Shown here: positions 30,458-36,794 of the stretch, piece after piece
Layout: each line of letters opens with the position of its first letter
How positions within the stretch are numbered: the first letter of the stretch is position 1
Assembly (NCBI GenBank): GCA_025357835.1
Contig: JANYLM010000082.1
Span: 1-58,746 of the forward strand
Source: Gammaproteobacteria bacterium
GTDB lineage: Bacteria; Pseudomonadota; Gammaproteobacteria; Steroidobacterales; Steroidobacteraceae
Direction of reading: 5' to 3'
DNA: 58,746 nucleotides
Notes under the pieces: generated by a model
The model's input: only the letters and a program-made list of their open reading frames with translations
The model's database searches: none
What the model was told of the DNA's origin: nothing
Program-made: the position numbers and the translations under genes

Positions 30458-31971
30458 TGACGCAAATCGATCCGGCGGGAGGCACACCGCTGGCCTTCAT
30501 CAGGGTGGCGTTCCTCAGTGTGGGCGTGGCTGGGTGCGGCGCGTTCGGGCCGGATCGCGAGCCGCCGCGGATGCCCTCGCCCGGGCACTACGCGGCGGAC
30601 GTTCAGCCGGCGCAACTACCTCTGGCCGACGGCGTTGCGCAGCAGTTGACGAACGCTGGGAGACCCATCGCTCAGTGGTGGACCCTTTATCAGTCGGATG
30701 CACTGAATGCCTTGGTGGAGGAGGGGCTGGACAAGAGCCCCTCGCTGGCCGCCGCGCAGAGTACGCTGCAGGCGGCGCGTGAAGGTCTGCGTGTGCAGAT
30801 CGGCCAGTCGGTGATACCCAGCGTCGATGCGGGCTTCAGCCCGACGCGTCAACGGGCGCTCGGCATCCCAACTTTACCGCAGCAGACCTTCCTCGAAAAC
30901 ATATTCGCCGCGGAAGTGAAGACCTCGTACACCTTCGATTTCTTCGGCGCGGCGGTGCTCGCGGATCGCGCCCTGGCGCGGCAGGTCCAGCTGCAGGCCT
31001 ACCAGCTCGAATCGACTCGGCGCGCGCTCGCCACCAATATCGTCGTGGCGACCATCAACGCGGCCTCGCTGCAGGAACAAGTTGCCGCAACCGAACGATT
31101 GGTCGCGCTGGGCGAACAGCGTGCCCGGCAAACGACGGCGCGTTACGCGCTCGGCAGCGCATCGCACGACGAAATGCTGGCTGCGGAACAGGATGCCGCC
31201 AATGCGGCGGCATCGCTGCCGACACTGCGGGCACAGGCGCTTGCGGTACGCCACGCGCAGGCTGTGTTGTTGGGACGCACGCCGGATCGGGCGCCTGTCC
31301 CCTTGTCGTTAGGAGAGCTGCATCTGCCCGATCATGTGCCCGTCTCGGTTCCGACCGATCTGCTGCATCAGCGGCCCGACATTCTAGCGGCGGAGGCGAC
31401 CGTGCGGGCGACGGCGGATGAGGCCGGCGCGGCGACGGCATCGATGTTCCCATCGTTAACCCTGTCGGCGTCGTATGGCCGTGGGGGCTTCGATTGGTCG
31501 ACCTTCACCTCGCCCGCAGGAGTGATTTGGAGCGTGGCTGCGAGCTTGACCCAGCCGCTGTTTCACGGCGGCGCGCTGGTCGCTCGCAAGCATCAGTACG
31601 CAGCCACTTACGATGCCGCTGTGGCGCAGTACAAACAGACCGTGCTGGCAGCGTTTAAGAATGTTGCGGATACTCTGGTGTCGCTCGATGAGGACGCTAA
31701 CACACTGGTCCAGGTCGAGCGCGCCGCGGCCGCGGCCGGCGCCGCGCAACGCGACACCGAGTCACGATACACGCTTGGAGCGACGACGTTTTATGCCACG
31801 CTGACCGCGGGGCAGCAGTATCAAATCGCCAGTGTTCAGTACACTCGCGCGCGTGCGGCGCGGCTTGCCGACACCGCGGCGTTATTTGAATCCATAGGAA
31901 ATCCGCCGCCGAGTCGGCCGAGGACGAGTATCGCCACCGCCGCGATGGCGAAGGGCGCAGTAAACAGGTAA
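30454..31971 (+). CDS. RND outer-membrane efflux lipoprotein (NodT family)
   Basis: A 505-residue TolC-like channel. I start at ATG 30454, which overlaps the permease stop; the lipobox VAGC then gives lipidated Cys28. Two outer-membrane-efflux repeats follow (about 80-270 and 290-480), with HQRPDILAAEATVRA and MFPSLTLSASYG typical of NodT/OprM proteins. The last about 45 codons overlap the end of the convergent MFS gene (31836-31971), and the tail after LFESIGNPPPS looks unlike the family, so the natural end may have been lost. Confidence 0.9.
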   Translation: MMTQIDPAGGTPLAFIRVAFLSVGVAGCGAFGPDREPPRMPSPGHYAADVQPAQLPLADGVAQQLTNAGRPIAQWWTLYQSDALNALVEEGLDKSPSLAAAQSTLQAAREGLRVQIGQSVIPSVDAGFSPTRQRALGIPTLPQQTFLENIFAAEVKTSYTFDFFGAAVLADRALARQVQLQAYQLESTRRALATNIVVATINAASLQEQVAATERLVALGEQRARQTTARYALGSASHDEMLAAEQDAANAAASLPTLRAQALAVRHAQAVLLGRTPDRAPVPLSLGELHLPDHVPVSVPTDLLHQRPDILAAEATVRATADEAGAATASMFPSLTLSASYGRGGFDWSTFTSPAGVIWSVAASLTQPLFHGGALVARKHQYAATYDAAVAQYKQTVLAAFKNVADTLVSLDEDANTLVQVERAAAAAGAAQRDTESRYTLGATTFYATLTAGQQYQIASVQYTRARAARLADTAALFESIGNPPPSRPRTSIATAAMAKGAVNR

Positions 31972-33164
31972 TAAAGCTGCTGCGGTGACCAGCCATGCTC
32001 GAGGAGACCGCCGCTCGCAAGCGGCGCCAGGATGGCGCCGAAACGGCCGATGCCGATCGCCCATCCCATGCCGGTCGCGCGCACCGCAGTCGGATACAAG
32101 GGTGGGCCAACGGCGTAGAGGCCAGCCATCGCGGCATTCACTATGCTGCCGAGCAGCAAGGCTGTCCACAAGGAGGCGTCGAGCCTGGTCATCGCCAATC
32201 CAAACGTGGCGCTGAGCACGGCGCTGCCGATGAGCACGCCCATGAGGAGCCGGAGTGCGTCGGCGCGCGCAACGGCCACAGAGAACAGTGCGCAGCCGGC
32301 AATGCCGCCGAGATTCAGCAGTACGCCCCCCGTCATGCCTTGCTTCGCACTGAGGCCCGCCGCGGTCAAGAGTCGGGGCGTCCAGCTAACGATGAAATAG
32401 AAACCGGCCATCGTACAAAAAAATGCGACCCACAGGAGTCCGGTCGTGCGCGTCATCAGCAGCGCGAGCTGTGAGCCCAGCGTGGCAGCTCGACCTGTCG
32501 CGGCCATCTGTTCGGGCAGCGCTGCTATCTCTGGCCGGCGCATCGAGGCCAGCAGTGCGTTCACGGATCGCAGTGCAGACGGCGGCCGCCGCATGATCAG
32601 AAAATCGAGCGACTCTGGAAGGCGCCGCCAGGCGAGCGGCAGCAACAGTAGCGACATCGCCCCGCCGATCGCGAATGCGGAACGCCAGCCGTAGCGGGGA
32701 ATGGCCAGCGCAGTCAGCGCGCCACCGATCGTCGCGCCGATTGAATAACCGGTGGCGTACACCGCCAGGGCCGTGGCGCGCCAGCGATCCGGGGAATATT
32801 CGCAGACGACCACCGCGACGCTCGCAATCGTGCCGCCGATGCCGATTCCGGTCAGCACTCGCAGGACCAATAGAGTGAAGAAGCCAGGCGCGGCCGCGGA
32901 GCACAGCATGCCAAGCCCGGCGAGTGCGACCGATAGCAGAACAATGACCCTGCGTCCCCAGCGGTCGGCGCATGGTCCGAGCGTCAGGGAGCCAAGCCCC
33001 ATCCCAACGAGCCCCGCGCTCAGCAGCGCGCCGAGCTGGCCGTCCAGCAGCCGCCAATCTGCCTTGACGCCCGAGGCAGCGAACGACATGCAGAGAATGT
33101 CGAAGCCGTCCAGCATGTTGAGACCGACGCAAACCGCGATGGCCACAACCTGAAAAGAGTTCAT
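31836..33164 (-). CDS. MFS transporter of the AAHS (aromatic acid:proton symporter) type
   Basis: A 442-residue twelve-helix carrier. TM1 carries NMLDGFDILCMSFAASG, the DGFD motif of aromatic-acid symporters of the PcaK/BenK group, and the loop 2-3 motif is GPCADRWGRRVIVL. Start is ATG 33164 with GGAAAAGGA upstream; a longer frame from 33224 lacks this. It lies 56 bases downstream of the dioxygenase gene on the same strand, so the two are probably cotranscribed. The carrier could import the substrate of this cluster. Its 3' end overlaps the convergent efflux gene by 136 bases. Confidence 0.85.
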   Translation of the reverse strand: MNSFQVVAIAVCVGLNMLDGFDILCMSFAASGVKADWRLLDGQLGALLSAGLVGMGLGSLTLGPCADRWGRRVIVLLSVALAGLGMLCSAAAPGFFTLLVLRVLTGIGIGGTIASVAVVVCEYSPDRWRATALAVYATGYSIGATIGGALTALAIPRYGWRSAFAIGGAMSLLLLPLAWRRLPESLDFLIMRRPPSALRSVNALLASMRRPEIAALPEQMAATGRAATLGSQLALLMTRTTGLLWVAFFCTMAGFYFIVSWTPRLLTAAGLSAKQGMTGGVLLNLGGIAGCALFSVAVARADALRLLMGVLIGSAVLSATFGLAMTRLDASLWTALLLGSIVNAAMAGLYAVGPPLYPTAVRATGMGWAIGIGRFGAILAPLASGGLLEHGWSPQQLYYLFTAPFAIAAVAILVLGRLGGGFPMDSNNAAVSASRAARARVY

Positions 33165-33220
33165 CGGTCCTTTTCCGATGGAGTCGCGCAGAGGTGCCGG
33201 CTGCGTCTCCGCACGGCAGG

Positions 33221-34012
33221 TCATGCGCCGAAAACCAGTGGGAATTCAGGTGCGTCGAACGGAGCGCCGTCTGCCAGTGTGAGATGTGGAAAGGGTGGCG
33301 AGCCTGAAGCGCCGCGGCGTACAAAGCGAGCGTCTGAGCCGACCCATCGCGACGAGAATACTCGCCGAACCGCCGCCGACGTATTCGCCGGGGCGCCGTG
33401 GATGGTACGGAAATCGAACGCCACGGTGTCTCCCGGCTCCATATCCCAGGCACGGATGGTGAGATGTTCTCGCTGTGCGTCGATGTCCGGTATCTCTTCA
33501 AAATCATCGGTTGCATACAACGACGTACCGTCGAACCGCTTCGGGCGGTAGCCGGAGGCATTCCAACGGTGCGAACCCGCAACGCACTCCAGCGACATGT
33601 ACTTGGCCACGGGATCGAGCGGGGTCCAGAAACTGACGCTGCTGCCCTCAACGCAGTAGTATGGCTGGTCCTGATGCCATGGCGTGACCGTGCTGTTTCC
33701 CGCCGCTTTGACAAGTACGTGGTCGTGGAAGAATCGTGAGGTCGTCGAGCCCATCAAGCGAGCAGCGAGCGATGCGGCCGGCGAGTCAAAAATGAAGGCG
33801 CGAAACGCCGCAATTCGCTGCCAATTACAATAATCTTGAAAGAACGGCGCTGAGCCATCCTTGGGTTGGTAGGACCGCTCAAGGGGGCTCGGATGCGCCA
33901 TGACCTGCGCCACACCTTGCGCCAATGCGGCGACCCTATCCCGGAATACCCCGCGCAGTACTACTACGCCGTTTTTTTGGAAATCCTCGATCGCTGCGTC
34001 CGAAATAATCAT
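33221..34012 (-). CDS. Phytanoyl-CoA dioxygenase family Fe(II)/2OG oxygenase
   Basis: A 263-residue cupin-fold oxygenase. The iron triad is visible: H113 and D115 (PWHQDQPYY) and H205 (FRTIHGAPANTS), with Arg216/217 (RRVFSSRW) as the likely 2-oxoglutarate ligand. It should hydroxylate or oxidatively cleave a small substrate with release of succinate and CO2. ATG 34012 is the best start because the family begins about ten residues before FQKNGVVVLRG; the frame extends to 34129, into the intergenic palindrome. It is divergent from the ammonia-lyase-like gene, and the carrier follows it. Confidence 0.87.
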   Translation of the reverse strand: MIISDAAIEDFQKNGVVVLRGVFRDRVAALAQGVAQVMAHPSPLERSYQPKDGSAPFFQDYCNWQRIAAFRAFIFDSPAASLAARLMGSTTSRFFHDHVLVKAAGNSTVTPWHQDQPYYCVEGSSVSFWTPLDPVAKYMSLECVAGSHRWNASGYRPKRFDGTSLYATDDFEEIPDIDAQREHLTIRAWDMEPGDTVAFDFRTIHGAPANTSAAVRRVFSSRWVGSDARFVRRGASGSPPFPHLTLADGAPFDAPEFPLVFGA

Positions 34013-34130
34013 CTTACTGCAGCCTTCTCGCCCGCGGCGCGTCTGTCGTTCCACACCATAGTGAATCAATGATCGATCAATAAACCGGCTCATATCAGAG
34101 TAGTCACTAGAGTTTGCCTTGTCAAACAAA

Positions 34131-34146
34131 TTATATGTATGTATAA
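34131..34146. promoter_or_regulatory. Palindrome in the divergent promoter region, possible HutC-like site
   Basis: TTATA-TGTATG-TATAA lies between the divergent oxygenase (34012) and lyase-like (34206) genes. HutC/GntR-family regulators bind short A/T-rich palindromes containing TGTATA-like cores, and a HutC-like gene is the third member of this cluster. The match is by eye only. Confidence 0.45.
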
Positions 34147-34205: not shown

Positions 34206-35981
34206 ATGCACAGCCGACTTCCCCGCCATCATCGCTTAGCACTCAGCACGTTGCTCGCCTTGGGTGTCAGTTGCGTCACGGCATTCACGTTCGCGGCCGA
34301 GACATATACGCCGATCGTTCCGACAATGGGCGATCAGGCCGTGACGCTTAACGGCCATGACTTGACCATCGAGCAAATCGTGAGTGTGGCCCGTTACGGG
34401 GCGAAGGTGGCGCTAGGCGCCGATGCCCGGCAACGCGAGGCGGATAACTATGGCCTGTTGCTTGAGGCGGCGGCGGAGGGAGTGTCGGTCTACTGGTTCA
34501 ATCGTGGCACCGGCGACCAGAGAGAGACGGTGCTTTTTGCCGGCGATGCAATGGCGACTGAAAACAGACCTAAAGTTGAACAGGAGCAGGCGGATAGTTT
34601 TCGCCGCGGTGCCCGGGCGGGGTTCGGTCCCGAAGTCGCAGAGGAAGAGGTCGTTCGTGCCATGATGGTCGTGCGGGCGAATGCAATGAGCTACAACGCG
34701 CCAAGCCCCCAGGTCAGTCAGATGCTGCTTGACCTACTGAACAAGCGCATCACGCCGGTGGTGCAGTCGCGCGGTACGTTGGGTGAAGGGGATCTTGCAC
34801 AGTTGGGCAACGTCGCCGGAACGATGGTAGGTGCGGGTGAGGCTTACTATCAGGGCGTGCGGATGCCGGCCGCGCAAGCCCTGGGGCGGGCCGGATTGAA
34901 GCCCATCCAACCCTTTGGGGCAGACGAAAATGCGCTCACGAGCAGCGACGCTTACGCCACCGGGCAGGCGGCGCTGTTGGTGAACGATGCCCGTCTCGCC
35001 CTCGAGTGGGCCGATTTGATCTATGCCATGGACCTCAATGGCATGAATAGCAGCATCACTCCGCTCAGCGCCGTCGTGCAGCGTGACAGACCCGGAAAGT
35101 GGCTGAATTGGGACGCTGCCCGCGTGCTTGACATGATCAGAGGTAGCTATCTTTTCGACGCCGACCCTAAGCGCATTATTCAGGATCCGGAGAGCTTGAG
35201 AGCTTCATCCATACGTCAGGCCGCCGCTTGGGAGGAGTGGTCCGCATTGAAAGATGCCGTCGTGTTCCAGGCGAATTCCTCCGATCACAATCCGGCCGTG
35301 CGCGTGGGCTTGGGACCGCAGGATTCCTGGGAGCTAGCAACGCCGCAGATGATGCAGTATTACGTGAAGGGCGGGGTACTAAGTCACGGACTGCATGGCT
35401 ACATCGTCTCGAACGCGAACTGGGACCCCTACCCGATGGCCAACAAGCTCGAGAACTTCGTAATAGCACTGGCCAACATGGACATTGCGGTCATGCTTCG
35501 GATCGAGCGATTCCGCAACCCATTCTTTACCGTGGTGGCCGCCTCAGATGTGTTGACCGGCCTACCGAGCGAAGACAATGGGTATACGCCGGTTGACTTG
35601 CAGCAGGAGATCCAGAGCTTGATGAATCCGGTGGCGCCGTTTGGCAGCGCACTGGAGTCCACGGTCGAGGATCTGCAAGCTCAGACACGCGTCAAGGTGC
35701 AGCGCGCTCGGGCTGCCGTGGCTACCACTCTGGATTTGCTGGGGCTTGATCTACTGAGAGCGAGTCTTTGGTTGGATGTGCGCAAGGCACAGGAACCCAA
35801 GCGATCTTTCGGGCCGGCGCCGACAGCGGCGTGGGTCGCCCTGCGCAAGGCGGTGCCGCTCAAGGTGGATCCCGCGCGCGTGTCGGCGGAGTCGAACGAG
35901 AGGCGGGCCGCAGCATTCGTGAAGGTGACCCCGGCAGCTACGTTCTACGCTCGCATCAGCTCCCCGGAAACGGACCGCTGA
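34206..35981 (+). CDS. Exported histidine/aromatic ammonia-lyase-like protein lacking the MIO triad
   Basis: A 591-residue protein with a signal peptide (residues 1-30, ending TAFTFA). The HAL/PAL fold is traceable: EGVSVYWFNRGTG (catalytic Tyr equivalent Y96), SRGTLGEGDLAQL at 188-200 in place of YGSVGASGDLAPL, QDPESLR at 326-332 in place of QDPYSLR, and NSSDHNPAV at 357-365 for the DNP block. The Ala-Ser-Gly that cyclises to the MIO cofactor is absent (one residue shorter, Glu-Gly), and the active-site Tyr of QDPYSLR is Glu329. It should therefore not work as a normal ammonia-lyase. An MIO-independent elimination, as I recall for ergothionase, is possible, and so is a non-catalytic role. 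Confidence 0.75.
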   Translation: MHSRLPRHHRLALSTLLALGVSCVTAFTFAAETYTPIVPTMGDQAVTLNGHDLTIEQIVSVARYGAKVALGADARQREADNYGLLLEAAAEGVSVYWFNRGTGDQRETVLFAGDAMATENRPKVEQEQADSFRRGARAGFGPEVAEEEVVRAMMVVRANAMSYNAPSPQVSQMLLDLLNKRITPVVQSRGTLGEGDLAQLGNVAGTMVGAGEAYYQGVRMPAAQALGRAGLKPIQPFGADENALTSSDAYATGQAALLVNDARLALEWADLIYAMDLNGMNSSITPLSAVVQRDRPGKWLNWDAARVLDMIRGSYLFDADPKRIIQDPESLRASSIRQAAAWEEWSALKDAVVFQANSSDHNPAVRVGLGPQDSWELATPQMMQYYVKGGVLSHGLHGYIVSNANWDPYPMANKLENFVIALANMDIAVMLRIERFRNPFFTVVAASDVLTGLPSEDNGYTPVDLQQEIQSLMNPVAPFGSALESTVEDLQAQTRVKVQRARAAVATTLDLLGLDLLRASLWLDVRKAQEPKRSFGPAPTAAWVALRKAVPLKVDPARVSAESNERRAAAFVKVTPAATFYARISSPETDR

Positions 35982-35990
35982 TCCGCGGCA

Positions 35991-36794
35991 ATGGCATTTA
36001 TGTCAACCGTCAAACAAGCCGTCAAGCTGCCTCTGTACGAGCAACTCCAGCGCTATGTCATCGACCGCATCGTGTCGGGGAAATGGCTGCAAGGGCACCG
36101 GATGCCCACGGAGTTCGAATTCGTTACTCAATTTGGCATGAGCCGTCCGACGGTGCATCGAGCGCTGCACGACCTGATGCAAAAAAGACTGATTGTCCGA
36201 ACGCCGGGAGCGGGTACATTCGTCGCGGAAGTCCGCCCGCAACTCGACCTCCTGGAGCTGCACAATATCGCCGACGACATCCGGCGGCGTGGGCACACTC
36301 ACTCAAATGAAGTGCATGTCATGCACGAAGCGGAGGCGACTCACGAAGTGGCGGCAGCGATCGGGATGCGGGCCGGCAACCCGGTGTATCATTCCGTGGT
36401 CGTGCATTTTGACGGCTCATGGCCGGTGCAGCTCGAGGATCGATTCGTCAATCCCGAATTCGCACCTAGGTATCTGAAGCAGGACTTCAGCAACATCACG
36501 ACGAACGCGTACCTCATGTCGATGGGGCCGCTCGACCGGGTGGAGCACACGGTCGAAGCGATTCGACCGCCGCCACGCACCCAGAAATTGCTGCGCATCC
36601 CCAAGGACGAGCCCTGCCTGTTCTTGCGCCGCCGAACGTGGTCTAGGGGATTGGTTGCCTCCTACGCGCTTCTCACGCATCCCGGAAGCCGCTATCGCCT
36701 CGGGGCGCGCTTCGATCCACTGCCTGCGCCGTCGCCATCACTAATCGGCCGCCGAAAGCCGGCGCGAAAGCGGGGCTCGGCAAAGAAGCAGTAG
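35991..36794 (+). CDS. GntR family regulator, HutC-like (UTRA domain)
   Basis: A 267-residue protein. A GntR winged helix occupies residues 12-78 (PLYEQLQRYVIDRIVSGKW, FGMSRPTVHRALHDLM), followed by a UTRA effector domain with the HutC pattern: LHNIADDIRRRGHTHS, YLKQDFSNITTNAYLM, EHTVEAIRPP and LRRRTWS...THPGSRYRLGARF. HutC senses urocanate and represses histidine-use genes. It lies nine bases after the lyase-like gene, which suggests that it controls that cluster and may sense an imidazole acrylate or similar product. Start could be ATG 35991 or 36000. Confidence 0.85.
   Translation: MAFMSTVKQAVKLPLYEQLQRYVIDRIVSGKWLQGHRMPTEFEFVTQFGMSRPTVHRALHDLMQKRLIVRTPGAGTFVAEVRPQLDLLELHNIADDIRRRGHTHSNEVHVMHEAEATHEVAAAIGMRAGNPVYHSVVVHFDGSWPVQLEDRFVNPEFAPRYLKQDFSNITTNAYLMSMGPLDRVEHTVEAIRPPPRTQKLLRIPKDEPCLFLRRRTWSRGLVASYALLTHPGSRYRLGARFDPLPAPSPSLIGRRKPARKRGSAKKQ

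Follow-up and report, generated by a model that had tools for sequence, protein, structure and literature searches.

The gene at positions 34206..35981 (forward strand) of the window, the whole 58,746-nucleotide stretch of DNA analysed here, probably encodes an exported member of the ergothionase superfamily, a lyase that would release trimethylamine from a betaine without the MIO cofactor. Contig C78, which makes up the window, belongs to the draft genome of a soil-type proteobacterium (4.05 Mb, completeness 94.4%). The reading frame is intact on translation (591 aa), and its product matches PF00221 over nearly the whole model at 295 bits, passing the general cut-off of 27.3. Together with an AlphaFold2 model (mean pLDDT 84.6, pTM 0.86), this match confirms the HAL/PAL-type (ammonia-lyase) fold that the original prediction, made from the sequence alone, had proposed.

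A probable signal peptide spans residues 1-31 (34206..34298, forward strand; cleavage point judged by eye), where a basic N-terminus leads into a hydrophobic segment, with small residues ahead of residue 32, and the pLDDT of the model is <50 at residues 1-14 and 16-31. By a crude in-house rule, the window lyase and 44/52 members of its clade are signal-like, some of the 8 clade misses resembling start-codon miscalls. The signal-like start noted originally is thereby upheld, and these N-terminal features indicate that the lyase is probably exported to the periplasm. The same crude rule marks 5/7 ergothionase-type proteins (L068-L071 and L130) as signal-like, with L066 appearing likewise by eye; predicted export is not peculiar to the clade of the window lyase.

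The MIO position and conserved residues

Two alignments, of 62 and 67 rows, were used, and the residue counts given here come from the 52-row clade. In both alignments the G193-E194-G195 triad of the window lyase (34782..34790, forward strand) aligns to the Ala-Ser-Gly (ASG) of true HALs and is one residue shorter. In the 67-row alignment, Glu329 of the QDPESLR motif (35190..35192, forward strand) occupies the column that holds Tyr in the HAL rows and Leu in the ergothionase rows. Both replacements had been read from the sequence alone, and the alignments bear them out. The suggested check on their conservation likewise gave a positive answer, with Glu194, Asp196 and Arg332 each present in 52/52 clade rows, Tyr96 in 48/52 and Glu329 in 45/52. 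Position 329 differs in seven rows: Leu in L048 and L054, Ile in L064, and two Asp, one Phe and one Gln among L018-L021. For comparison, the Glu194 column holds Ala in the five HAL rows and Glu (4), Gln (2) or Ala (1) in the seven ergothionase-type rows, and the residue at 329 is Tyr in the former and Leu (7) in the latter.

Close homologues carrying ASG, which the original prediction had named as the finding that would count against it, were sought among the 52 clade rows, and neither ASG nor Ala at the Glu194 column occurs in any of them. Since Glu194 is present throughout the clade, the GEG triad of the window is no lineage error. Two plasmid copies within the clade bear the annotation aromatic amino acid ammonia-lyase and, like the PF00221 match, would suit an ordinary MIO enzyme that is simply misaligned here; that reading is very improbable given the residue counts and the curated HAL, PAL and TAL models, whose cut-offs the window lyase does not reach (best score, NCBIfam hutH at 147.4 bits against 539.15).

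Several positions set the clade and the ergothionases together against the HAL rows, namely E194, N281 and E416, besides 360 with either Asp or Glu and 407 with an acidic residue. Other features are specific to the clade: Trp97 (40/52), Trp406 (48/52), Glu329 and the loss of the SH-motif His (window residue 136), which is found in 0/52 clade rows and is kept in HAL and ergothionase rows, so that ring recognition may differ. The catalytic roles of the Tyr and Arg positions are those known from HAL. Tyr96, Arg332, Asn357 and Glu488 are retained in the window lyase and most of the clade, which argues against a binding or sensing protein that merely keeps the lyase fold. For the window protein, nothing spoke directly for such a non-catalytic role, the alternative offered originally, and it appears improbable, even with the TonB-receptor clusters of many related loci and the loss of Tyr96 and other residues in L018-L021 in its favour. 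That same-genus side branch could itself be of this kind: it has Asp or Glu for Tyr96, PDP for QDP and His or Arg for Glu488, and is perhaps non-catalytic or altered in function.

Kinship with ergothionase

Treponema denticola ergothionase (PDB 6s7j, 6s7q) is the nearest solved structure on three counts: it is the best sequence match (4.5e-32; next 2.8e-20), the best profile match (1.7e-61; next 2.9e-34) and, as 6s7j, the best fold match to the model of the window lyase (E 9.4e-27; TM-score, normalised to target length, 0.86), the next protein by fold being a HAL (6.5e-23). The suggested structural comparison therefore returned the ammonia-lyase fold, with no sign of a different one, and ergothionase, which the original prediction had named, proved to be the right family. 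According to a published account, ergothionase works without MIO and yields trimethylamine and thiourocanic acid (PMC13405746). The T. denticola enzyme shares with the window lyase the fold, the GEG triad, Tyr96, Arg332, Glu416, Glu488 and the lack of MIO, but is only 22-27% identical to it, has QDPLSFR in place of QDPESLR, retains the SH-motif His and was crystallised as a chain without a signal-like start.

The plasmid ergothionase-type proteins (L066-L071) and L130 are likewise MIO-less tree neighbours of the window lyase (Glu, Gln or Ala followed by Ala), most of them signal-like, as given above. They differ in having QDPLSFR, in keeping the His, and in overall sequence (27-32% identity for L066-L071). 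L068 and L070 adjoin a thiourocanate hydratase. At two further loci, the ergothionase-type genes of Polaromonas (L067 8670-13703) and Paracoccus saliphilus (L069 110-2316), the lyase neighbours include YeiH-type or putative sulfate exporters and ornithine-cyclodeaminase-family genes, possibly marking an ergothioneine sulfonate route. HutH shares the PF00221 fold and the Tyr96, Arg332 and Glu488 columns with the window lyase and differs in Ala-Ser-Gly/MIO and QDPY; the HAL rows compared are not signal-like.

By its fold, its shorter triad-less loop, Tyr96 and Arg332, the window lyase therefore belongs with the MIO-less PF00221 superfamily. It lacks two marks of a strict ergothionase, Leu329 and the SH-motif His, present in 8/8 ergothionase rows (the seven ergothionase-type proteins and T. 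denticola). In the tree the clade has a support of 100/100 and a long stem, and a branch supported at 96/89 places the clade and the seven ergothionase-type proteins on one side and the HALs on the other; the ergothionase-type group itself has a support of only 88/41. The T. denticola enzyme falls with the HALs across the 96/89 branch, in a tree rooted at its midpoint and with several long branches that leave its deep joins unsure. No mention of the exported form was found in the literature listings searched.

Combined, the closest structure, GEG, Tyr96 with Arg332, and the relatives that lie in an ergothioneine cluster (see below) favour an MIO-free elimination as in ergothionase, as first suggested. 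A likely mechanism, judged from conserved residues, starts from a betaine whose leaving group is already a quaternary trimethylammonium, making the MIO electrophile unnecessary. Tyr96 would take the beta proton and Arg332 would hold the carboxylate, while Glu194 at the MIO position, perhaps with Glu329, would face the ammonium; trimethylamine would then depart and an aryl-acrylate would be formed. The residues common to the clade and the ergothionases, a second HutC beside the window lyase and the quaternary-amine neighbours of its relatives also speak for a betaine lyase. The missing SH-motif His, the low identity to the T. denticola enzyme (about 22-27%) and the three points raised below against hercynine speak against one.

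Gene neighbourhoods and host genome content

The second HutC-type regulator (35991..36794, forward strand; TIGR02018 269.5 bits, cut-off 220) starts 9 nt past the lyase stop and is 45% identical to the HutC of the hut locus (291 bits). None of 38 other loci holds a gene that groups with this regulator. In published accounts, HutC responds to urocanate (PMC8871633, PMC12977541) and its operator consensus is TGTA-N2-TACA (PMC12977541). One site in the divergent gap upstream of the lyase (34136..34145, no strand assigned) has a single mismatch to this consensus; there is no perfect operator in the window, and the six HutC-like sites in its whole length against 4.26 expected are no excess over chance. 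On the reverse strand lie a divergent PhyH-family dioxygenase identified by profile (33221..34129; true start probably further in, at ~34012) and an MFS transporter that most resembles the aromatic acid/H+ symport group (31836..33224; 347.7 bits, below the cut-off of 418.55).

Four PF00221 genes are present in the host genome, on contigs C69, C108 and C133 and in the window. The C69 gene is an ordinary HAL with ASG that adjoins urocanase and HutC. The C133 paralogue is 61% identical to the window lyase and has the GEG triad; its locus (L072 4514-16159) encodes, around the lyase, TonB-receptor-like, TPR/sulfotransferase-like, phosphonate-type binding protein-like and desaturase-like proteins, a ProP-like symporter and a choline-sulfatase (810.7 bits, cut-off 433.45). 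The C108 gene (L083 8543-10036) is an apparent further MIO-less type by its sequence, without ASG, with the loop GSVGYLTHMAH and QDPLSLR and without a signal-like start, and has a TonB-receptor-like gene a few kb away.

A survey of 38 loci placed the relatives in a quaternary-amine setting. TonB-receptor-type clusters recur (one type in 9/38 loci and another in 5/38, one representative of each having been profiled), and other neighbours are TPR/sulfotransferase proteins, phosphonate-type binding proteins, ProP-like symporters, TauD, choline-sulfatase, sarcosine oxidase, dimethylglycine-dehydrogenase-like genes and GbdR-like regulators, the last below cut-off. The Mesorhizobium loci have no obvious partner gene. 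Tandem lyases, with two or more paralogues that are in some cases ~50% alike, occur at L025, L026, L032/L052, L048, L053 and L054, which may serve distinct substrates or assemble into mixed oligomers.

Clade members 57% identical to the window lyase lie in an ergothioneine cluster in two alphaproteobacterial MAGs (L048 and L054), whose first lyases are 98% identical and thus count as one event. The order at L048 is a GbdR-like regulator (partial), thiohydantoin desulfurase (582 bits, cut-off 440), thiourocanate hydratase (979, cut-off 930), a metabolite/H+ symporter, a TonB-receptor-type gene (by cluster), lyase 1 (QDPLSLR), lyase 2 (QDPESLR), a small unknown, an ammonium-transporter family gene, a TMAO-demethylase-like C-terminal part on the opposite strand, trimethylamine monooxygenase (832, cut-off 675) and a TMAO-demethylase-like N-terminal part. 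Each of the two genomes has four PF00221 genes; three others were placed in the tree and L136 by BLAST, and all side with the clade. As neither a HAL nor another type of ergothionase turned up in these MAGs, which may be incomplete, an exported lyase is likely the ergothioneine lyase there.

These loci also bear on whether the window lyase might act on some other aromatic betaine, for example of tryptophan, tyrosine or phenylalanine. The lost His and the gained Trp97 and Trp406 suggest an altered ring pocket, and the aromatic-acid-type transporter lies nearby; on the other hand, the HutC-type neighbour points to an imidazole acrylate, and the L048 lyases, which also lack the His, sit in the ergothioneine cluster. 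We regard this alternative as unlikely.

Residue 329 and candidate substrates

Neither thiourocanate hydratase nor thiohydantoin desulfurase scores over cut-off in any of 60 genomes (the host, a 94% complete draft, and 59 relatives), and a thiourocanate route in the host was set aside on the basis of these two models; weaker matches below cut-off occur in 13/60 genomes for the desulfurase and 46/60 for the hydratase, the latter mostly with urocanase-like scores. Among 20 genomes or plasmids carrying the clade, both enzymes are over cut-off in only three (G069, G073 and W01) and neither is in the other 17. Each of the three has a copy with Leu or Ile at 329, with Glu copies also in G069 and G073, and the copies examined from the 17 (other paralogues there left out) have Glu329. 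The naive chance of this match is 1 in 1140, for records that are not independent, with three positives representing at most two events and W02 being a plasmid only. In Paracoccus aminophilus, the plasmid encodes a further MIO-less lyase (RS19040) some 16 kb away from the hydratase, which weakens this species as an independent ergothioneine case. For both reasons, the tracking of thiourocanate enzymes by the residue 329 type is a lead and not proof. RS19040 (L138 10893-12389, pAMI4) is annotated as histidine ammonia-lyase (hutH) and should lack MIO in view of its triad, GAAD; it has QDPLSYR and no signal-like start. The pair of thiourocanate enzymes is also missing from the L066, L067 and L069 records, which are plasmids only, and their presence in the same genome is therefore a soft criterion for an ergothionase.

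Wider sampling could not extend the comparison because the clade is too rare. Clade genes occur in 16/22 same-genus, 1/14 same-family and 0/23 same-order relatives and, at E up to 1e-60, in 2/398 genomes across the phylum (one being the host) and in G069 alone among 246 genomes of its order. Members are also known from Mesorhizobium, Sphingomonas, Aestuariivirga, and Paracoccus and Rhizobium plasmids.

The second HutC beside the lyase, the absence of thiourocanate enzymes over cut-off from all 60 genomes and the presence of urocanase in the host favour urocanate as product and hence hercynine (histidine betaine) as substrate. The window lyase may, in our tentative reading, be a periplasmic hercynine trimethylamine-lyase whose product, urocanate, arises outside the cytoplasm, is detected by a HutC of its own and enters the ordinary histidine pathway; residue 329 (Glu or Leu) would contribute to the choice between the bare and the thiolated imidazole. 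With the Glu329 type, the cell would take up the urocanate and break it down through the ordinary hut pathway, controlled by the second HutC. Hercynine would be the likeliest single substrate of this type, as a possibility rather than an expectation. Three points count against it: the HutC neighbour is unique to the window locus, the host has no trimethylamine monooxygenase over cut-off, and S. oleivorans has a Glu329 lyase but no urocanase or HAL match, although its trimethylamine monooxygenase is ~17 kb away on the same contig as the lyase. Trimethylamine monooxygenase was also rejected as a universal partner, being over cut-off in only 11/51 handles (10 distinct genomes, G019 being G061). 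A plain exported ergothionase, turning ergothioneine into thiourocanate and trimethylamine with the product left for neighbours or for unrecognised enzymes, would agree with the closest solved relative and with the clade members in the ergothioneine cluster, but is rather doubtful in view of the missing thiourocanate enzymes and their restriction to the records with a Leu or Ile copy at 329.

The ergothionase family is already known; its exported Glu329 form would be new. If the preferred reading of an exported, MIO-free betaine lyase is true, an exported subfamily would be added to the small set of cofactor-free lyases, and some genes publicly named ammonia-lyases could not be MIO enzymes. 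The natural variants, with Glu, Leu or Ile at 329 and with or without the His, offer material for learning how the MIO fold functions without MIO. Additionally, the subfamily would open a way to study how soil bacteria may live on quaternary histidine compounds, giving off trimethylamine.
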